DNA from: a virus
IMG/VR virus record: IMGVR_UViG_3300021964_000012
Coordinates: 126,001-190,000 of that record
Length of the DNA: 64,000 bases
Reading direction: 5' to 3' (one strand)
The first letter of the stretch is position 1. Every line of letters begins with the position of its first letter. The notes beneath the pieces are model-generated. The model searched no databases. It saw only the letters and a program-made list of their open reading frames with translations, and was not told the DNA's origin. Shown here in pieces: positions 11,986 through 47,829 of this stretch. A program made the translations under genes and the position numbers.

Positions 11986-12092
11986 TATTTTTTCTCCATA
12001 AGATATAGTCTAGCACTACGTGGTGAATAGTTGTTGATACAAATATATTTTACTAAAAATTTCCTATATTCGAATAGTAAGACATCATCCAT
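11985..12092 (-). CDS. Possible 35-residue protein between clamp loader and next gene
   Basis: Starts MDDVLLFEYRKF and ends ARLYLMEKK. It begins inside the last codons of the clamp-loader gene and ends in a TAATG overlap with the next gene, so it exactly bridges the gap. In T4 the slot after gene 44 is gene 62, but this is far too short to be gp62. Function unknown. Confidence 0.45.
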   Translation of the reverse strand: MDDVLLFEYRKFLVKYICINNYSPRSARLYLMEKK

Positions 12093-13008
12093 TGATCTGC
12101 GAAAGCTCCACCATTGTTGCACTTAGATTAATTTCTGGATCTGCTACAAAACTGTGATTAACAAGTCCTGTACGTATTGCCATTATGGCACTGTCTTGTC
12201 CTTCTGGAGTTGTACTAAACAATTCCAAGTTATCATACATCCAGCGAAACACATCTTCCATCTCTTCTGGACGTACAGTTGCACACATTAATTTTCTTGC
12301 TTCTACTATTTTTCCTGCCTTAAACAAGTTAACTGCATCAACACGCCAGTCGCTGATGTTTCCTTCATCGCCTTTGACATTTGCAAGTCGACCATTTGTA
12401 CTGTTCATTTGACACAAGTTCAAACACTTACGCAGATCAGGATAGGTGCTACGTACATAAGTGTCTAGTATATCAATGTCTATTTCAACATGTTCTGCAA
12501 CCAATACAGTTGCAACTCTCGCTGTAAATTCTGTTCGGTCTACTTTCTCAATATGAAAACCTTGACACCTTGAATGTAATGCAGGAATAACTCTGTTTGG
12601 ATAGTTGCAAGTCAGTATAAATCTTGCACTTGCATGATAGGTTTCCATAACGCCACGTAGTGCCGCTTGTCCGTTTGGCGATATATAGTCAGCCTCATCT
12701 AATAACACAATCTTAAAGTCGCCAAACGGCATAGTTTGTACAAATCCTGTAATCTTGTCACGGATTGTGTCAATTGAATTCTCTCTTGATGCATTTATTT
12801 CTAGTACATCAAAGTCATCTATTTCAAGTTGTTTGATCAGTATCTTTGCCAGTGTTGTTTTACCTACACCAGGTGCACCACTGAATAACAAATGAGGAAT
12901 AGCACCTTCATCTATCCAAGTTTTAACCTGTGCTTTTTGTTCGTCATCACGGAACACATATCCGTCAATGTCATTTGGCCTATACTTTTCAGTCCACAGT
13001 TGCTTCAT
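12085..13008 (-). CDS. Sliding-clamp loader large subunit, T4 gp44-like
   Basis: 307 residues, AAA+ RFC-type. WTEKYRP near the N terminus (RFC box), Walker A FSGAPGVGKTTLAK (about 42-55), Walker B IVLLDEADYI, and sensor/arginine-finger ALHSRCQGF (about 140). It loads the processivity clamp at primer ends using ATP. AGGAG precedes the ATG and a consensus promoter lies at 13031-13059. No gp62 partner is recognisable nearby. Confidence 0.93.
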   Translation of the reverse strand: MKQLWTEKYRPNDIDGYVFRDDEQKAQVKTWIDEGAIPHLLFSGAPGVGKTTLAKILIKQLEIDDFDVLEINASRENSIDTIRDKITGFVQTMPFGDFKIVLLDEADYISPNGQAALRGVMETYHASARFILTCNYPNRVIPALHSRCQGFHIEKVDRTEFTARVATVLVAEHVEIDIDILDTYVRSTYPDLRKCLNLCQMNSTNGRLANVKGDEGNISDWRVDAVNLFKAGKIVEARKLMCATVRPEEMEDVFRWMYDNLELFSTTPEGQDSAIMAIRTGLVNHSFVADPEINLSATMVELSQING

Positions 13009-36613: not shown

Positions 36614-38053
36614 GTGGCGGAAATTTATGCCCTTGTGGCAGGTACATTGTATGGACTACTAATAGGTATTATACCCGGAGCAGGTGCTACCACTGGCTTG
36701 ATATTCTTGTTTCCTTTTATGATGATGTTTCCAGATCCTTATCTAGCAGTAATATTTGTAATGGCAGTGGTAGCAGCCTCAACAACAGGTGATACTTACA
36801 CTGGTGTGTTGCTAGGAATACCCGGTGCTAACAGTGCAGCCGCTACCATGGTAGATGGATTTCCACTTGCACTTCAAGGTCGTGCAACCTATGCTATCAG
36901 TGCCGCAGTAACAACATCAACTGTTAACGGATTACTATGGGGTAGTTTGGTTTTCTTTTTATTGCCTTGGTATACAGGACTTATAATGATATTTGGTGTT
37001 CCTGAGCTGTGGGCTTTTACCTTGCTTGCACTGGTAACAGTGACCTTTGTAAGTAACCGATGGTGGATACGTGGATTAATTGCATTATGCACAGGAATAT
37101 TTGTTGGAATGATAGGCGTGGATCCAAATACAAATGCTGATCGTTTTACATTTGGTTGGGAATACTTAGGCGATGGCGTGCAAATATTGCCAATGATTGC
37201 AGGCTTGTTTGCCATACCAGAGTTATTGGATGGACTTAAAAACAGACACACAACTGCTTCAGCAACAACTACAAATGGAACACAGACTCGTGAAGGAATC
37301 TTAGCAGTATGGAGCAATCGTTGGTTAGCACTACGTGGAGGATTCATTGGTGCATTTATTGGTATACTTCCAGGACTAGGTGGAGCAATGGCAGACTGGA
37401 TGGCATATGGTCAGGCAGTTGCTACAACAAAGAATCCTTCAGTGCCTTTTGGCAAAGGCAACATCAGAGGAGTAATTGGGCCAGAAGGTGCTAACAATGC
37501 ACAAAAAGCAACATCAATGATTCCTACAGTTTTATTTGGAATACCTGGAGCTCCTTTTGCGGCTATTATTATTGGTTTGTTTATGTACTTGGACTTTGAG
37601 CTTGGTACTATTGATCTAGCACAAGACGATCAATTCTTTGATAGTATGCTTTATGGATTCATGTTGGCAACACTGTTGGTTGGTGCTCTATGCTTATGGT
37701 TAACAAAATATATTGCCATGATTGCGACTGTGCCTTACAAATACTATTTTCCTCTACTGTTAACGTTTATAATAGCGGCATGTGTACAATACACAGGTGG
37801 ATGGGAAGATTATGCTATATTGATCGTCTGCTCCATAGTAGGAATCAGTGCAAAGAAATTCAAGTTCTCAAGACCTGCAATGCTATTTGGTTTTATACTT
37901 GCAGAAAGAGTTGAGGCTTTAACTATACAGATGCACGGTCTGTATACATTCGACAGACTGTTAACTCGTCCTATATTTTGGACATTGTTAGCAGTTGTAA
38001 TAGCTGTGTTAATTTGGGGTTTAACCAAACGCAGTAAACTAGATTATGCATAA
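36614..38053 (+). CDS. tctA: TctA-family tricarboxylate transporter permease
   Basis: 479 residues, about 10-12 transmembrane segments, close to the usual about 500 of TctA. Signature loops GLLIGIIPGAGATTG, LLGIPGANSAAATMVDGFPL and GILPGLGGAMADWM match the TctA family, the large permease of tripartite tricarboxylate transporters. The first possible start is GTG (VAEIYALVAG); an upstream in-frame stop at 36581 limits alternatives. No TctB follows. Paired with a TctC-like binding protein directly downstream. Confidence 0.9.
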   Translation: MAEIYALVAGTLYGLLIGIIPGAGATTGLIFLFPFMMMFPDPYLAVIFVMAVVAASTTGDTYTGVLLGIPGANSAAATMVDGFPLALQGRATYAISAAVTTSTVNGLLWGSLVFFLLPWYTGLIMIFGVPELWAFTLLALVTVTFVSNRWWIRGLIALCTGIFVGMIGVDPNTNADRFTFGWEYLGDGVQILPMIAGLFAIPELLDGLKNRHTTASATTTNGTQTREGILAVWSNRWLALRGGFIGAFIGILPGLGGAMADWMAYGQAVATTKNPSVPFGKGNIRGVIGPEGANNAQKATSMIPTVLFGIPGAPFAAIIIGLFMYLDFELGTIDLAQDDQFFDSMLYGFMLATLLVGALCLWLTKYIAMIATVPYKYYFPLLLTFIIAACVQYTGGWEDYAILIVCSIVGISAKKFKFSRPAMLFGFILAERVEALTIQMHGLYTFDRLLTRPIFWTLLAVVIAVLIWGLTKRSKLDYA

Positions 38054-38068
38054 CATAGGAGAAATAGA

Positions 38069-39112
38069 ATGCGTAAATTACTACTAACACTAGCATTATT
38101 GCTAGGCTACACTAGTTCAGCAGTTGCTGATTATACGTTTGTTGTACCTCAAAGAGCAGGACAAGGAACAACTGTTTGGGCAGAAATTATTGCCAAAGAA
38201 CTAGAGCCTTTTTTAGGTGAAAAGATTAAAATTAAAATGTTACCGGGTGCAAGAGATATTCCTGGATTTAACAAATGGCACAATGATCTAAGATTAGATG
38301 ACAAAACTGTGATGGTATCTCATGGCGGTAATGGTGTTTCATTTTTACAAGAGAAAGTAGACTATGACTATAGACAGTACGATAGTGTTGGCATGATGAA
38401 TTTAAATATCATTGCCGGTAAACGCAAGGGTGCTGACATGGACAAGCCAGTATTTCCAGCAGGTTCTGGAATGGTGCCTGAGGCTTTTGCAATGGCGTTG
38501 CTTATATGTGGTCCAGACAAAACAGTTGATGAATACATAGCATGTTTCAAAAAAAATGTTACTTGGGTTAAAGGAATGAAAACATCAGAAAGACGTTTAG
38601 CATTCAAACGTGGTGAATTAACAGGCACACGAGAGAATCCAGCAACTTACAAAAAACACGTTGCACCAGACGAGAATGCAGAACTTTGGTTTCATCATGG
38701 ACTACTACAAGCAGATGGTTCTCATGCAGACGATCCAAACTTTCCAGGATTACAAATGGAAATCCTTTATGAAGTATATTGGAAACAGGCTCCTAAAGGT
38801 GAATTCTACGATGCTTACAAGCTGGTAAAATCATTCCGTGATGGATTACAAAAAGCATTATGGGTAAACAAAGGAAACCCAAACAGAGATAAACTTGCGG
38901 CGGCACTTACTGCAATGAGCAAGGACCCAACTGCAATTGCTAACCTGATCAAAAAGAACGGTAAGTATGATTGGTACATTGGAAAAGCAGGTGATGCACA
39001 ACGTGATAAACTGTTGACCTTTGTTACAGAAAAATCACTTAAAAACCTAGTAAAGTTCAATAAAGAAGCACTAGGACTTAAGAGTATATACAAGGAAGGC
39101 TTAGTAAAATAA
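38069..39112 (+). CDS. TctC-like periplasmic solute-binding protein
   Basis: 347 residues. Cleavable signal peptide (MRKLLLTLALLLGYTSSAVA). YTFVVPQRAGQGTTVWAEIIAKEL is the start of the TctC/Bug fold, which binds carboxylates for TctA. AGGAG precedes the ATG, 15 bases after tctA. Ligand cannot be inferred. The stop overlaps the next start (TAATG). Confidence 0.85.
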   Translation: MRKLLLTLALLLGYTSSAVADYTFVVPQRAGQGTTVWAEIIAKELEPFLGEKIKIKMLPGARDIPGFNKWHNDLRLDDKTVMVSHGGNGVSFLQEKVDYDYRQYDSVGMMNLNIIAGKRKGADMDKPVFPAGSGMVPEAFAMALLICGPDKTVDEYIACFKKNVTWVKGMKTSERRLAFKRGELTGTRENPATYKKHVAPDENAELWFHHGLLQADGSHADDPNFPGLQMEILYEVYWKQAPKGEFYDAYKLVKSFRDGLQKALWVNKGNPNRDKLAAALTAMSKDPTAIANLIKKNGKYDWYIGKAGDAQRDKLLTFVTEKSLKNLVKFNKEALGLKSIYKEGLVK

Positions 39113-45040: not shown

Positions 45041-45276
45041 CCATATTTTAGTATAAAAGCAAAAAAATCTGCATCATTACTGAAAAAGAATGCATAAGCA
45101 CCTGGTGTGTTAGTTGAACTTGATGTGAGAATTTGCCACTTCCATCCTGGAGATAGCTCTTGTTTACACCAATCTACTACAGCATCAATCTTGCCGGTGG
45201 GAAGATGCAGTGTTTTTGCATGTGGATAACCTTCTTCAATTTTGATTACCCTGGTGTATTCTTCAATCAATTCCAT
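45037..45276 (-). CDS. Hypothetical 79-residue protein
   Basis: Starts MELIEEYTRVIKIEEG. Ends in the downstream promoter region. No family. Overlaps the start-proximal gene by 14 bases. Confidence 0.62.
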   Translation of the reverse strand: MELIEEYTRVIKIEEGYPHAKTLHLPTGKIDAVVDWCKQELSPGWKWQILTSSSTNTPGAYAFFFSNDADFFAFILKYG

Positions 45277-45694
45277 GATACAATGCTTCGTCTAAATAGT
45301 CTACAGGCAAATTCCAATCACTATAACCTTGTTGCAAAAGGTCAATATAACCAGCACTTGGTGCACTGTACACCAATGGTGGATTCATATCATATGCCAT
45401 AAAGGTATCCCCATCTTGTTCTAACCACATCTTGGTATAGTAGTAAGGGAATCCTTCAAAATGATCTAGTGTCTCTTCGCAAGCAGGCGTGATGTTCCAC
45501 AGGCATCCTGGTACACGATGGCCAGGTGCAGGTTCTATTGTGGCATGATGACAGAACACCAATCGCCAGTCTCTAACTGTATAGGCTCCAAGAGGTATGG
45601 CATCTGGACAACGGTACTTCATTGCCTCTAGTGCCATGTTAGCACCATAAGCAAAGTACAGTCTAGTTGGTTTTTGTAATAGATTTAATTTCAA
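45263..45694 (-). CDS. Gamma-glutamylcyclotransferase-like (AIG2/GGCT)
   Basis: 143 residues. YFAYGANMALEAMKYRCP is the YGxN substrate loop and EGFPYYYTK carries the likely catalytic Glu. Family members release 5-oxoproline from gamma-glutamyl compounds. Substrate here unknown. Confidence 0.8.
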   Translation of the reverse strand: MKLNLLQKPTRLYFAYGANMALEAMKYRCPDAIPLGAYTVRDWRLVFCHHATIEPAPGHRVPGCLWNITPACEETLDHFEGFPYYYTKMWLEQDGDTFMAYDMNPPLVYSAPSAGYIDLLQQGYSDWNLPVDYLDEALYHGID

Positions 45695-45830
45695 TATTGT
45701 TTCCTGTTAGTTGTGCAATAGCTTCTTGTTCCGATTCGGCCAACACAGTCTTTTCATTTATCTGTCTGTAACTACTTGGTGGACAACAATGATCTTTCTG
45801 TTCACTGTATATTACGAGATACACGTTCAT
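45663..45830 (-). CDS. Hypothetical 55-residue protein
   Basis: MNVYLVIYSEQKDH start with beta-alpha pattern, including ESEQEAIAQL. Ends inside the GGCT gene. Its ATG overlaps the preceding stop (TGATG). No domain. Confidence 0.6.
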   Translation of the reverse strand: MNVYLVIYSEQKDHCCPPSSYRQINEKTVLAESEQEAIAQLTGNNIEIKSITKTN

Positions 45831-46417
45831 CAGATTGGCTCATATTCAAAATAATCTAATTCTTCAGCAAAGTGTCTTTTGATACATTTTACAAATTCTG
45901 TGCTCAATTCACTTACGTGCAAGTTTGAAGTGCGACTATGTACTGTGTGATCTAGTGGAACCGTACTGTTAAACAATTCCTGTATCTTGTAAAAATCTTC
46001 TGCAAGTGATTCATATGGTACTAATAGATCTACATCTTTTATATACTTCAGTTGATCATGATGTGATCTTACTTCTGGATTTTCAAAGATATAATCACAG
46101 AACGGTACAATACCAAGACGCCAGTACTTTTGATGTCGTTTTGCCATTTTATAGTTTTCACTTGTTTCTAAATTTTTTTTTAAAGTTTTTGTGTATTTGT
46201 AATCTGCCCAGTTATACAAACTCAAAATTCTTCTGTAGGTGTTTCTTGGTATGGCGAAAGTTTTATCATAATGAAGTTTATTGTATTCAGCTAAACTGTT
46301 GTGTCCAATTTCCACAAAAACATTAGCATGATTTTCTCGTGCCCAATGTGTTATACTTGCTCCTGCTGATTTAGGAATATGAACAAACCCTACTTTCATT
46401 GTTGTTTTTGTCTCCAA
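45830..46417 (-). CDS. Sulfotransferase-family protein
   Basis: 195 residues. 5'-PSB-like loop FVHIPKSAGASITHWA and 3'-phosphate-binding-like IPRNTYRRILSLYNW are the PAPS-binding motifs of the sulfotransfer_2 family. Transfers sulfate from PAPS to a glycan or other acceptor, unknown here. One of three to four PAPS-type proteins in the window. Confidence 0.72.
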   Translation of the reverse strand: METKTTMKVGFVHIPKSAGASITHWARENHANVFVEIGHNSLAEYNKLHYDKTFAIPRNTYRRILSLYNWADYKYTKTLKKNLETSENYKMAKRHQKYWRLGIVPFCDYIFENPEVRSHHDQLKYIKDVDLLVPYESLAEDFYKIQELFNSTVPLDHTVHSRTSNLHVSELSTEFVKCIKRHFAEELDYFEYEPI

Positions 46418-47227: not shown

Positions 47228-47479
47228 CTACTCCTTGTTGTTGTCTTTAAATGGAAAAATTTTAGTATGTTCTTCTTGTGGATCTCTTTCCCAACTGATC
47301 TTTGCCCATGCTCTTTCGTGAAAATAGTACAATGCCATTTTGGTTATTACTTCTATGCTTGCTATTGCTCCTGCCAATTGCCATGTGCCAGTAATAATCC
47401 AACTTATTAAAAATGTGTCAGAGGTAGCAACAATACGCCAACTGAAAGTTTTAGCAAGACTCCGTTTGTAAGTTGCTAT
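47228..47479 (-). CDS. DUF2061 membrane protein with ATA start
   Basis: 83 residues. KRSLAKTFSWRIVATSDTFL, IEVITKMALYYFHERAW are the DUF2061 signature (two TM helices). No ATG/GTG/TTG occurs between the upstream in-frame stop and the domain. ATA at 47479 has AAGGAG with a 7-base gap and would give the normal family N terminus. It overlaps the ArfA gene. Confidence 0.82.
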   Translation of the reverse strand: MATYKRSLAKTFSWRIVATSDTFLISWIITGTWQLAGAIASIEVITKMALYYFHERAWAKISWERDPQEEHTKIFPFKDNNKE

Positions 47480-47579
47480 TGGCTTTCTCCTTGTTTCTGT
47501 TGTAAGAACCTTTGCCTTTGCGATTTACAACCACTGAGGATCGCAATGTTCTAACTGCTTTGGCTATTGGATTCTTCAC
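47451..47579 (-). CDS. arfA: ArfA-like alternative ribosome-rescue factor
   Basis: 42 residues with GTG start. NPIAKAVRT followed by VVNRKGKGSYNRNKEK matches the ArfA core, whose KKGKGSYxRK segment sits in the mRNA channel of stalled ribosomes while recruiting RF2. The tail (ANSNLQTESC) is divergent. Starts inside the preceding gene and overlaps the DUF2061 gene. Phage-borne copies are unusual in my knowledge. Confidence 0.78.
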   Translation of the reverse strand: MKNPIAKAVRTLRSSVVVNRKGKGSYNRNKEKANSNLQTESC

Positions 47580-47829
47580 TGTTGTTTTCTTTTTCATTTT
47601 CTGACTTTTTCTTCAATGCTCTTGAGAGTGCTGGTGCAGGAATATCTTCAGTTACTGAGATGTGCATTCTTGGATTTTCTTCTTGTAAAAGTTGTGCCAT
47701 TTTTTCTGCACGTTCTCGTCTTGTAAAAACATGTACTACACTATCTTCCATATCTCTCATCAAATAGTAGTTTTTTTCGTTCAGAATAGAATTTTTTGGT
47801 TTGGTAAGATAAACTTTTATTGCATACAA
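47551..47829 (-). CDS. Hypothetical 92-residue protein
   Basis: N-terminal alpha/beta (MYAIKVYLTKPKNS) and a Ser/Glu/Asn-rich tail. It ends inside the ArfA start. No domain. Confidence 0.62.
   Translation of the reverse strand: MYAIKVYLTKPKNSILNEKNYYLMRDMEDSVVHVFTRRERAEKMAQLLQEENPRMHISVTEDIPAPALSRALKKKSENEKENNSEESNSQSS

Follow-up and report, generated by a model that had tools for sequence, protein, structure and literature searches.

When a phage cuts or loses mRNA, stalled ribosomes are to be expected, and few studies have addressed how phages keep ribosomes available. The question raised by the locus described here is whether a very short open reading frame (ORF), overlapping two other genes in a virus record, encodes a functional ribosome-rescue factor of the ArfA type, as had been claimed in an earlier note. 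We analyzed a stretch of 64,000 nucleotides, hereafter called the window, which represents bases 126001-190000 of the 328,292-base virus record. Our favoured reading, to which we assign a probability of roughly 0.8, is that the ORF would encode a working phage ArfA that rescues non-stop ribosomes via the RF2 of the host.

Gene structure and overlaps

The two motifs on which the claim was built, NPIAKAVRT and KGKGSYNRNK, are both present in a minus-strand ORF of the window (Table 1), which translates into MKKKTTVKNPIAKAVRTLRSSVVVNRKGKGSYNRNKEKANSNLQTESC. The length of 42 residues proposed in the earlier note, counted from a GTG codon at 47579, had to be revised. The ATG at 47597 was preferred since the copies of the gene in two related viral contigs, L117 and L119, also start with ATG at this position (MKKQT and MKKKT, respectively), and the GTG was set aside as a start. 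The homologue in Caulobacter phage Cr30 has a possible start, MPKKTTT, that is in line with the longer N-terminus. A strong Shine-Dalgarno sequence was absent at both ATG 47597 and GTG 47579.

Table 1. Features of the arfA locus, in window coordinates.
Feature	Position	Strand	Remarks
arfA-like gene, 48 aa	47451..47597	-	ATG start at 47597, TAA stop at 47453-47451; Pfam and profile matches
N-terminal core NPIAKAVRTLRSSVVV	47526..47573	-	aligns with the RF2-contacting minidomain of E. coli ArfA
Predicted basic mRNA-channel segment NRKGKGSYNRNK	47490..47525	-	KGKGSY codons at 47502-47519
Upstream 92-aa gene	47551..47829	-	3' end overlaps arfA by 47 nt (47551-47597)
Downstream DUF2061 gene	47228..47479	-	Pfam PF09834, 42.9 bits; probable ATA start at 47479, inside arfA

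The proposed overlap with two other genes was borne out, these being the 92-aa gene upstream and the DUF2061 gene downstream. The DUF2061 gene has no ATG, GTG or TTG start. It is likely to start at the ATA codon at 47477-47479 on the minus strand, which is preceded by AAGGAG at a spacing of 7 nt, equal to the spacing observed at the ATG of the next gene (47223); this ATA may represent a rare AUA start, a mutation or a sequence error. A homologue of the DUF2061 gene (L092) has an ATG one codon upstream of the position that aligns with ATA 47479, and an alternative rare start in the window is ATC 47524. The KGKGSY codons are located between the two overlaps if the DUF2061 gene starts at ATA 47479, and inside the DUF2061 overlap if it starts at ATC 47524.

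Other genes in the window were also recorded. Two transporter-like genes at 36614-39112 (+), an unusual cargo for a phage, presumably encode the tripartite tricarboxylate transporter proteins TctA and TctC. The putative TctA shows 28-40% identity to proteins in 22 of the 289 genomes of the class examined, and no host was called from it, the identity being just 28-40%. The clamp loader encoded at 12085-13008 (-) has its closest counterparts among named phages in the PA5oct-like Pseudomonas phages (55% identity). Near arfA, at 45263-46417 (-), gamma-glutamyl cyclotransferase-like and sulfotransferase-like genes were recognized with PHROGs.

Homology to ArfA

The Pfam model of ArfA (PF03889) matched the window protein with an E-value of 7.2e-5 and a score of 22.6 bits, which misses by 2.9 bits the curated cut-off of 25.5, a reporting line that marks no biological feature. 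The search with the ArfA model that the earlier note had proposed as a check thus returned a match, although below the cut-off. When the whole record was searched with PF03889, the sole match was the arfA place (E 4.5e-5).

When 1,796 window ORFs were scored with a profile of 31 other phage proteins (alignment A2 minus the window row), the arfA ORF reached 61.8 bits (E 3e-18), a score that is somewhat favoured since the members of A2 were gathered by searches starting from the window protein. The second-best window ORF reached 4.2 bits, and the top score in six control sequences, one reversed and five with shuffled base triplets, was 8.5 bits.

Searches of the PDB with the phage profiles provided an independent check on homology. 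Profile A1 retrieved six distinct ArfA chains at E about 1e-7, which were the sole matches below E 0.2; the remaining matches up to E 1 were four selenium-transferase sequences at E about 0.3. Profile A2 retrieved six distinct ArfA sequences at E about 1e-8 and nothing further up to E 1. The segment KGKGSYNR of the window protein aligns with the channel segment of the ArfA proteins in the PDB. With the window protein alone as the phmmer query, the solved ArfA chains were matched at E 0.9-1.5 and a capsid protein ranked higher (E 0.11), a weak result that is expected because the query is so short. Searches of PHROGs and NCBIfam gave weak matches at best (E of 0.05 or higher), no DNA similarity of the arfA region to named phages was found, and the GGQ motif is absent from the 48-aa sequence. 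The profile comparisons confirm that the ORF is real and support its identification as a phage homologue of ArfA.

Conservation at the locus and selection

Using the upstream 92-aa gene as the query, we retrieved five viral loci (L117-L121). The homologues of this gene show 67% identity in L117 and 63% in L119, and in both contigs an arfA-like ORF follows. The L117 protein is MKKQTKPMNPIARVVRTIKPAVVASKKGKGSYNRKKQTIK, and its gene overlaps the upstream gene by 47 nt; the L119 protein is MKKKTKKRNPLAKILSKFKPLVIKPKKGKGSYLRLRGHNAINTD, with an overlap of 50 nt. In L118 and L120 the upstream gene is kept and arfA is absent, and L121 is not informative as it ends before the arfA place. The gene is thus found at the same place in two of the four informative related contigs (L117 and L119), a further check that the earlier note had proposed, and this conservation together with the homology backs the identification as a phage ArfA. 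Among 12 related virus records, hand-chosen from the loci found in the searches for relatives and possibly fragments, PF03889 had no match in 10, and the two with a match were the same L117 and L119.

The earlier note had named a loss of KGKGSY in homologues, or selection on the overlapping frames only, as grounds on which to abandon the claim. KGKGSY was instead found to be kept in L117 and L119, where no DUF2061 match was observed in the stretch fetched, and the downstream gene therefore cannot be what keeps the motif there. Between the N and the Y of the core, stops break up both other same-strand frames; this holds for the window, L117 and L119 as well as for 45 of 66 distinct sequences. 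If the KGKGSY part is taken alone, the +1 frame of L117 and L119 is free of stops.

These results bear on the idea that the ORF is a chance open frame, or that its sequence has been shaped solely by the overlapping genes. The ORF is short and overlaps two genes, which fits this idea, and acidic tails can give rise to basic peptides when read in another frame. However, the leave-window-out profile gave 61.8 bits for the window ORF as compared to at most 8.5 bits in the controls, KGKGSY is kept in two contigs with no DUF2061 match, and homologues sit in other gene contexts. The profile score, the L117 and L119 copies and the frame stops refute a chance or overlapping-frame artefact at the sequence level, and we regard it as extremely improbable.

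The three closest copies have diverged considerably. The window copy and that of L117 differ by 14 nonsynonymous and 8 synonymous codons out of 36, and the window copy and that of L119 by 17 nonsynonymous and 5 synonymous codons out of 34. In the part that is free of the upstream overlap, the window and L117 differ by 5, 4 and 11 changes at the first, second and third codon positions, with the third highest. The close trio shows that the frame and the motif are maintained rather than strongly conserved throughout. For 49 loci in 11 clusters of viral relatives, the pooled pN/pS was 0.22, calculated from pairs that are not independent and with fused forms and single sequences left out. The ratio was below 1 in 10 of the 11 clusters (0.04 to 0.60, with 0.60 in cluster H, which has 9 loci) and undefined in the eleventh, a pair without silent change. 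These ratios show purifying selection in the clusters of viral arfA relatives.

If the gene were instead a decaying remnant of ArfA, open only through its short overlaps with the neighbours, one would expect a patchy presence, and L118 and L120 indeed have the same upstream gene but no arfA. The large number of amino-acid differences between the three closest copies also fits this explanation, as does the +1 frame, which stays open through KGKGSY in L117 and L119. Yet the reading frame has stayed open in all three copies, which also retain the ATG and KGKGSY; stops break both other same-strand frames over the core as a whole in each of them, and the clusters of relatives are under purifying selection. 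We therefore consider a remnant quite improbable and retain a maintained phage ArfA as the better explanation.

Relatives in viral contigs and named phages

A first scan of viral contigs confirmed 8 loci out of 65 pattern matches, and a profile scan confirmed at least 131 relatives among at least 599 pattern matches. The best 80 of the at least 131 confirmed loci were kept, of which the motif filter recognized 76 (all except L050, L058, L059 and L064). A scan of genome contigs with A2 gave at least 598 pattern matches, one of which was confirmed against the window sequence, and is no census. In the 32 aligned proteins (window included), residues N9, P10, A12, G28, K29 and R34 never vary, and K27, G30 and S31 hardly do.

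Comparison of the window protein with named phages by tblastn identified five records, namely Cr30 (two copies, E 0.04), CRP-212 (E 0.4) and Citrobacter phage Merlin (two copies, E 4); the Merlin matches were taken as chance. No named phage was found with the L041 protein as the query. The motif was identified in six named phages: Caulobacter phage Cr30, Roseobacter phage CRP-212, Erythrobacter phages XM05 and vB_EliS-L02, Citromicrobium phage RXM and Pelagibacter phage HTVC027P, with NIIA for NPIA in XM05. ArfA is named in only one of the six named-phage records with the full motif, that of RXM. The ORF is annotated as a hypothetical protein in XM05 and HTVC027P, and has no annotated gene in Cr30 and vB_EliS-L02, in agreement with the suggestion that a gene of this kind would be missed by gene callers.

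The PF03889 scores exceeded the cut-off in Cr30 and L012 (27.3 bits each), CRP-212 (33.3 bits), L041 (34.1 bits) and XM05 (36.9 bits). Scores under 25.5 bits were obtained for L117 (24.8), L119 (22.3) and gp30 of HTVC027P (20.2), the last of which has been published as ArfA. The ORFs of Cr30 and CRP-212 resemble the window protein in the NPIAKAL or NPVAKIL core and in KGKGS[FY]. Unlike the window gene, the Cr30 copy overlaps an unrelated upstream gene, for which no alignment with the 92-aa gene was obtained. In CRP-212, the arfA-like ORF (L010:2492-2617) lies within gp38, in a different reading frame of its acidic 3' end.

Phage ArfA as such is already known, having appeared in print at least twice. 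According to the two reports, g10 of Citromicrobium phage vB_CbaS-RXM was named ArfA (PMC8953757), and gp30 of pelagiphage HTVC027P is a PF03889 ArfA homologue that is highly expressed both early and late in infection (PMC12753301). Both are phage-encoded ArfA homologues like the window protein, but they carry KGRGSY (RXM) or KGRGSF (HTVC027P) where the window protein has KGKGSY, and their core is longer. No systematic study of phage ArfA was found in the open-access literature.

Fused forms, in which an ArfA-like N-terminus is joined to a longer basic protein, were observed in L014-L024, L026, L029 and L083. The two that were tested, L014 and L083, end in phrog_17747, to which PHROGs assigns no function. 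Parts resembling the fused C-terminus were found in 17 named phage records, 12 of which are Pelagibacter or Roseobacter phages.

Chromosomal ArfA in SAR11-type genomes

An ArfA-like protein is also encoded in the chromosome of a Pelagibacteraceae MAG (L094:2989-3129, plus strand). In the order of this genome, the Pelagibacterales, PF03889 matched 119 of 197 genomes, 63 of them over the cut-off. In its class, matches were obtained in 10 of 385 genomes, 8 over the cut-off, and three of these 10 belong to the order set. PF03889 had no match in Caulobacter, one of the 14 control genomes. When the ten best-scoring loci of the order were compared, arfA was located in eight of them between the same two genes, named from their sequences as response-regulator-like and PfkB-like. 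The SAR11-type chromosomal loci comprise L094 and L097-L106.

According to PMC8012679, ArfA occurs only in some beta- and gammaproteobacteria, and a 2024 survey of 15,259 genomes reported ArfA in none of 2,376 Alphaproteobacteria (PMC11633108). Our result suggests that the survey missed short forms of ArfA or did not include the carrier genomes.

DUF7230 as a probable sister family

Acinetobacter phage Acj61 and Roseobacter phage CRP-9 encode short proteins that have the N-terminal half and lack KGKGSY, and these proteins match DUF7230 (PF23876). DUF7230 proteins (Acinetobacter phages Acj61 and AbTZA1, and CRP-9) share with the window protein the N-half pattern NP[IV]AKxLRTPxxKxxV. They are unlike it in that KGKGSY is missing, and (D)KTKY-like letters are found at this place in most of the six aligned sequences. 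Profile-profile comparison of the phage ArfA alignment with six DUF7230-type sequences (L110, L111, L112, L202, L203 and L204) gave a probability of 97.4%; three of the six were obtained via an ArfA query and three via the DUF7230 model. The DUF7230 model matched 5 of the 385 genomes of the class, and of the five model loci, L205 (no clear protein) and L206 were left out of the DUF7230 alignment A3. The window protein had no match to the DUF7230 model up to E 1, the DUF7230-type profile had no match in the PDB, and no mention of DUF7230 was found in the open-access literature. By these comparisons, DUF7230 looks like a sister family of ArfA.

Core length, RF2 contacts and proposed mechanism

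The known system taken for comparison is ArfA (YhdL; PF03889; PDB 5MDV, 5H5U, 5U4I and others), which we take to be that of E. coli. Off the ribosome, ArfA is expected to be largely disordered. The window protein and E. coli ArfA have in common the KGKGSYxR channel segment, the NxI of the minidomain and, at an offset of 7, a deltaC17-like length. The window protein differs in having NPIAK for NAIEA, in being encoded by a virus, in a stop codon of its own right after the tail with no hairpin beyond chance, and in a core that is two residues shorter (24 residues from N to Y, as compared to 26). Among 66 distinct sequences (window included), the core has 24 residues in 23, 26 in 39, 27 in three and 28 in one; 11 of the 23 sequences with a 24-residue core are the N-termini of the longer basic protein type.

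As described in PMC5378476, the C-terminal part of E. coli ArfA sits in the empty mRNA channel, the minidomain contacts RF2 through Leu19, Leu24 and Phe25, and a cut at Asn47 is tolerated whereas a cut after Met40 is not. According to PMC4245945, functional E. coli ArfA is C-terminally truncated, with ArfA-deltaC17 serving as the wild type. The window protein ends at the equivalent of E. coli residue 55 (offset 7), which corresponds to the deltaC17 length and is past Asn47. The two-residue gap is located in the RF2-contacting stretch (E. coli Leu24/Phe25), Lys13 aligns with E. coli Ala18, and Val15 and Leu18 may stand in for the E. coli RF2-contact residues. Since the tail and the length match E. 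coli ArfA but the gap and Lys13 fall in the RF2-contact stretch, we grade the predicted binding to the mRNA channel as very likely and the predicted recruitment of RF2 as likely.

In E. coli, a stem-loop makes the arfA mRNA non-stop, so that tmRNA limits ArfA (PMC8012679). A hairpin control of this kind was rejected for the window gene, which has its own TAA stop; no RNA hairpin beyond chance was found at arfA, the fold of 47421-47620 giving z 0.42 against shuffles. The stop codon and the lack of excess folding point to tmRNA-independent expression, and the window arfA is probably free of RNase III/tmRNA control. No match to PF00472 (RF1/RF2/ArfB) or to tmRNA was found in the record, which is possibly incomplete; both families were matched in the control genomes. 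A phage-encoded RF1, RF2, ArfB or tmRNA was thus set aside, and host RF2 would therefore be used. A search for the RegB mRNA nuclease gave no match, and likewise none in any of the 14 control genomes, so that this negative outcome carries no weight. Degradation of host mRNA by this phage, as supposed in the earlier note, is hypothetical.

We infer translation of the 48-aa protein, ribosome binding, use of host RF2, rescue, tmRNA independence and a benefit to the phage, as follows. The protein would be made during infection, and its basic tail (KGKGSYNRNKEK) would enter the empty mRNA channel of ribosomes at the 3' end of a cut message. The N-terminal minidomain (NPIAKAVRTLRSSVVV) would recruit host RF2 and open it, after which RF2 would release the peptide without a stop codon and the ribosome would be freed for phage translation. 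Because its own stop codon comes close after the core, arfA would be made regardless of whether the host tmRNA is busy. In this mode of action, the window protein would resemble ArfT of Francisella and BrfA of Bacillus, each of which is a small protein described as bringing a release factor to non-stop ribosomes.

The same contacts could serve a protein that binds the ribosome and/or RF2 as ArfA does yet brings about no rescue. As a decoy or regulator, it would keep RF2 inactive or obstruct the rescue factors of the host, for example so that termination is changed in favour of the phage. The shortened core in the RF2-contacting stretch fits such a role, as do the DUF7230-type phage proteins, which keep the N-half and not KGKGSY. 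So does Lys13 at the Ala18 position, where A18T inactivates E. coli ArfA by permitting RF2 binding but blocking release (PMC5378476). However, KGKGSY and the basic tail are kept in the window protein, L117 and L119. Moreover, Lys, Arg and Glu are also found at the Ala18 position in the chromosomal SAR11-type proteins, where a decoy makes little sense. We consider a non-rescuing role unlikely, and a working phage ArfA remains the preferred reading.

Implications

New aspects of this phage ArfA are a core two residues shorter than that of E. coli and a gene with a stop codon and no hairpin beyond chance, in addition to the overlooked relatives in named phages, the chromosomal ArfA in SAR11-type genomes and the link to DUF7230. 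The locus also illustrates how phage genes that are tiny and overlap others are overlooked even when their function is known, with the gene named in one of six named phages. With a phage-borne ArfA, the question of how ribosomes are kept free can be tested using a protein of 48 aa and standard E. coli strains.

In a broader interpretation, which we hold with about even confidence, phages, including phages of Alphaproteobacteria, may encode an extensive family of trimmed ArfA proteins, most of them overlooked, which would provide RF2-dependent rescue free of tmRNA control to hosts in which ArfA is mostly missing. Proteins with a 24-residue core, the window protein among them, would then form a subclass that has to contact RF2 otherwise than E. 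coli ArfA does, and DUF7230 would represent a sister branch in which RF2 is recruited but the channel is plugged differently.
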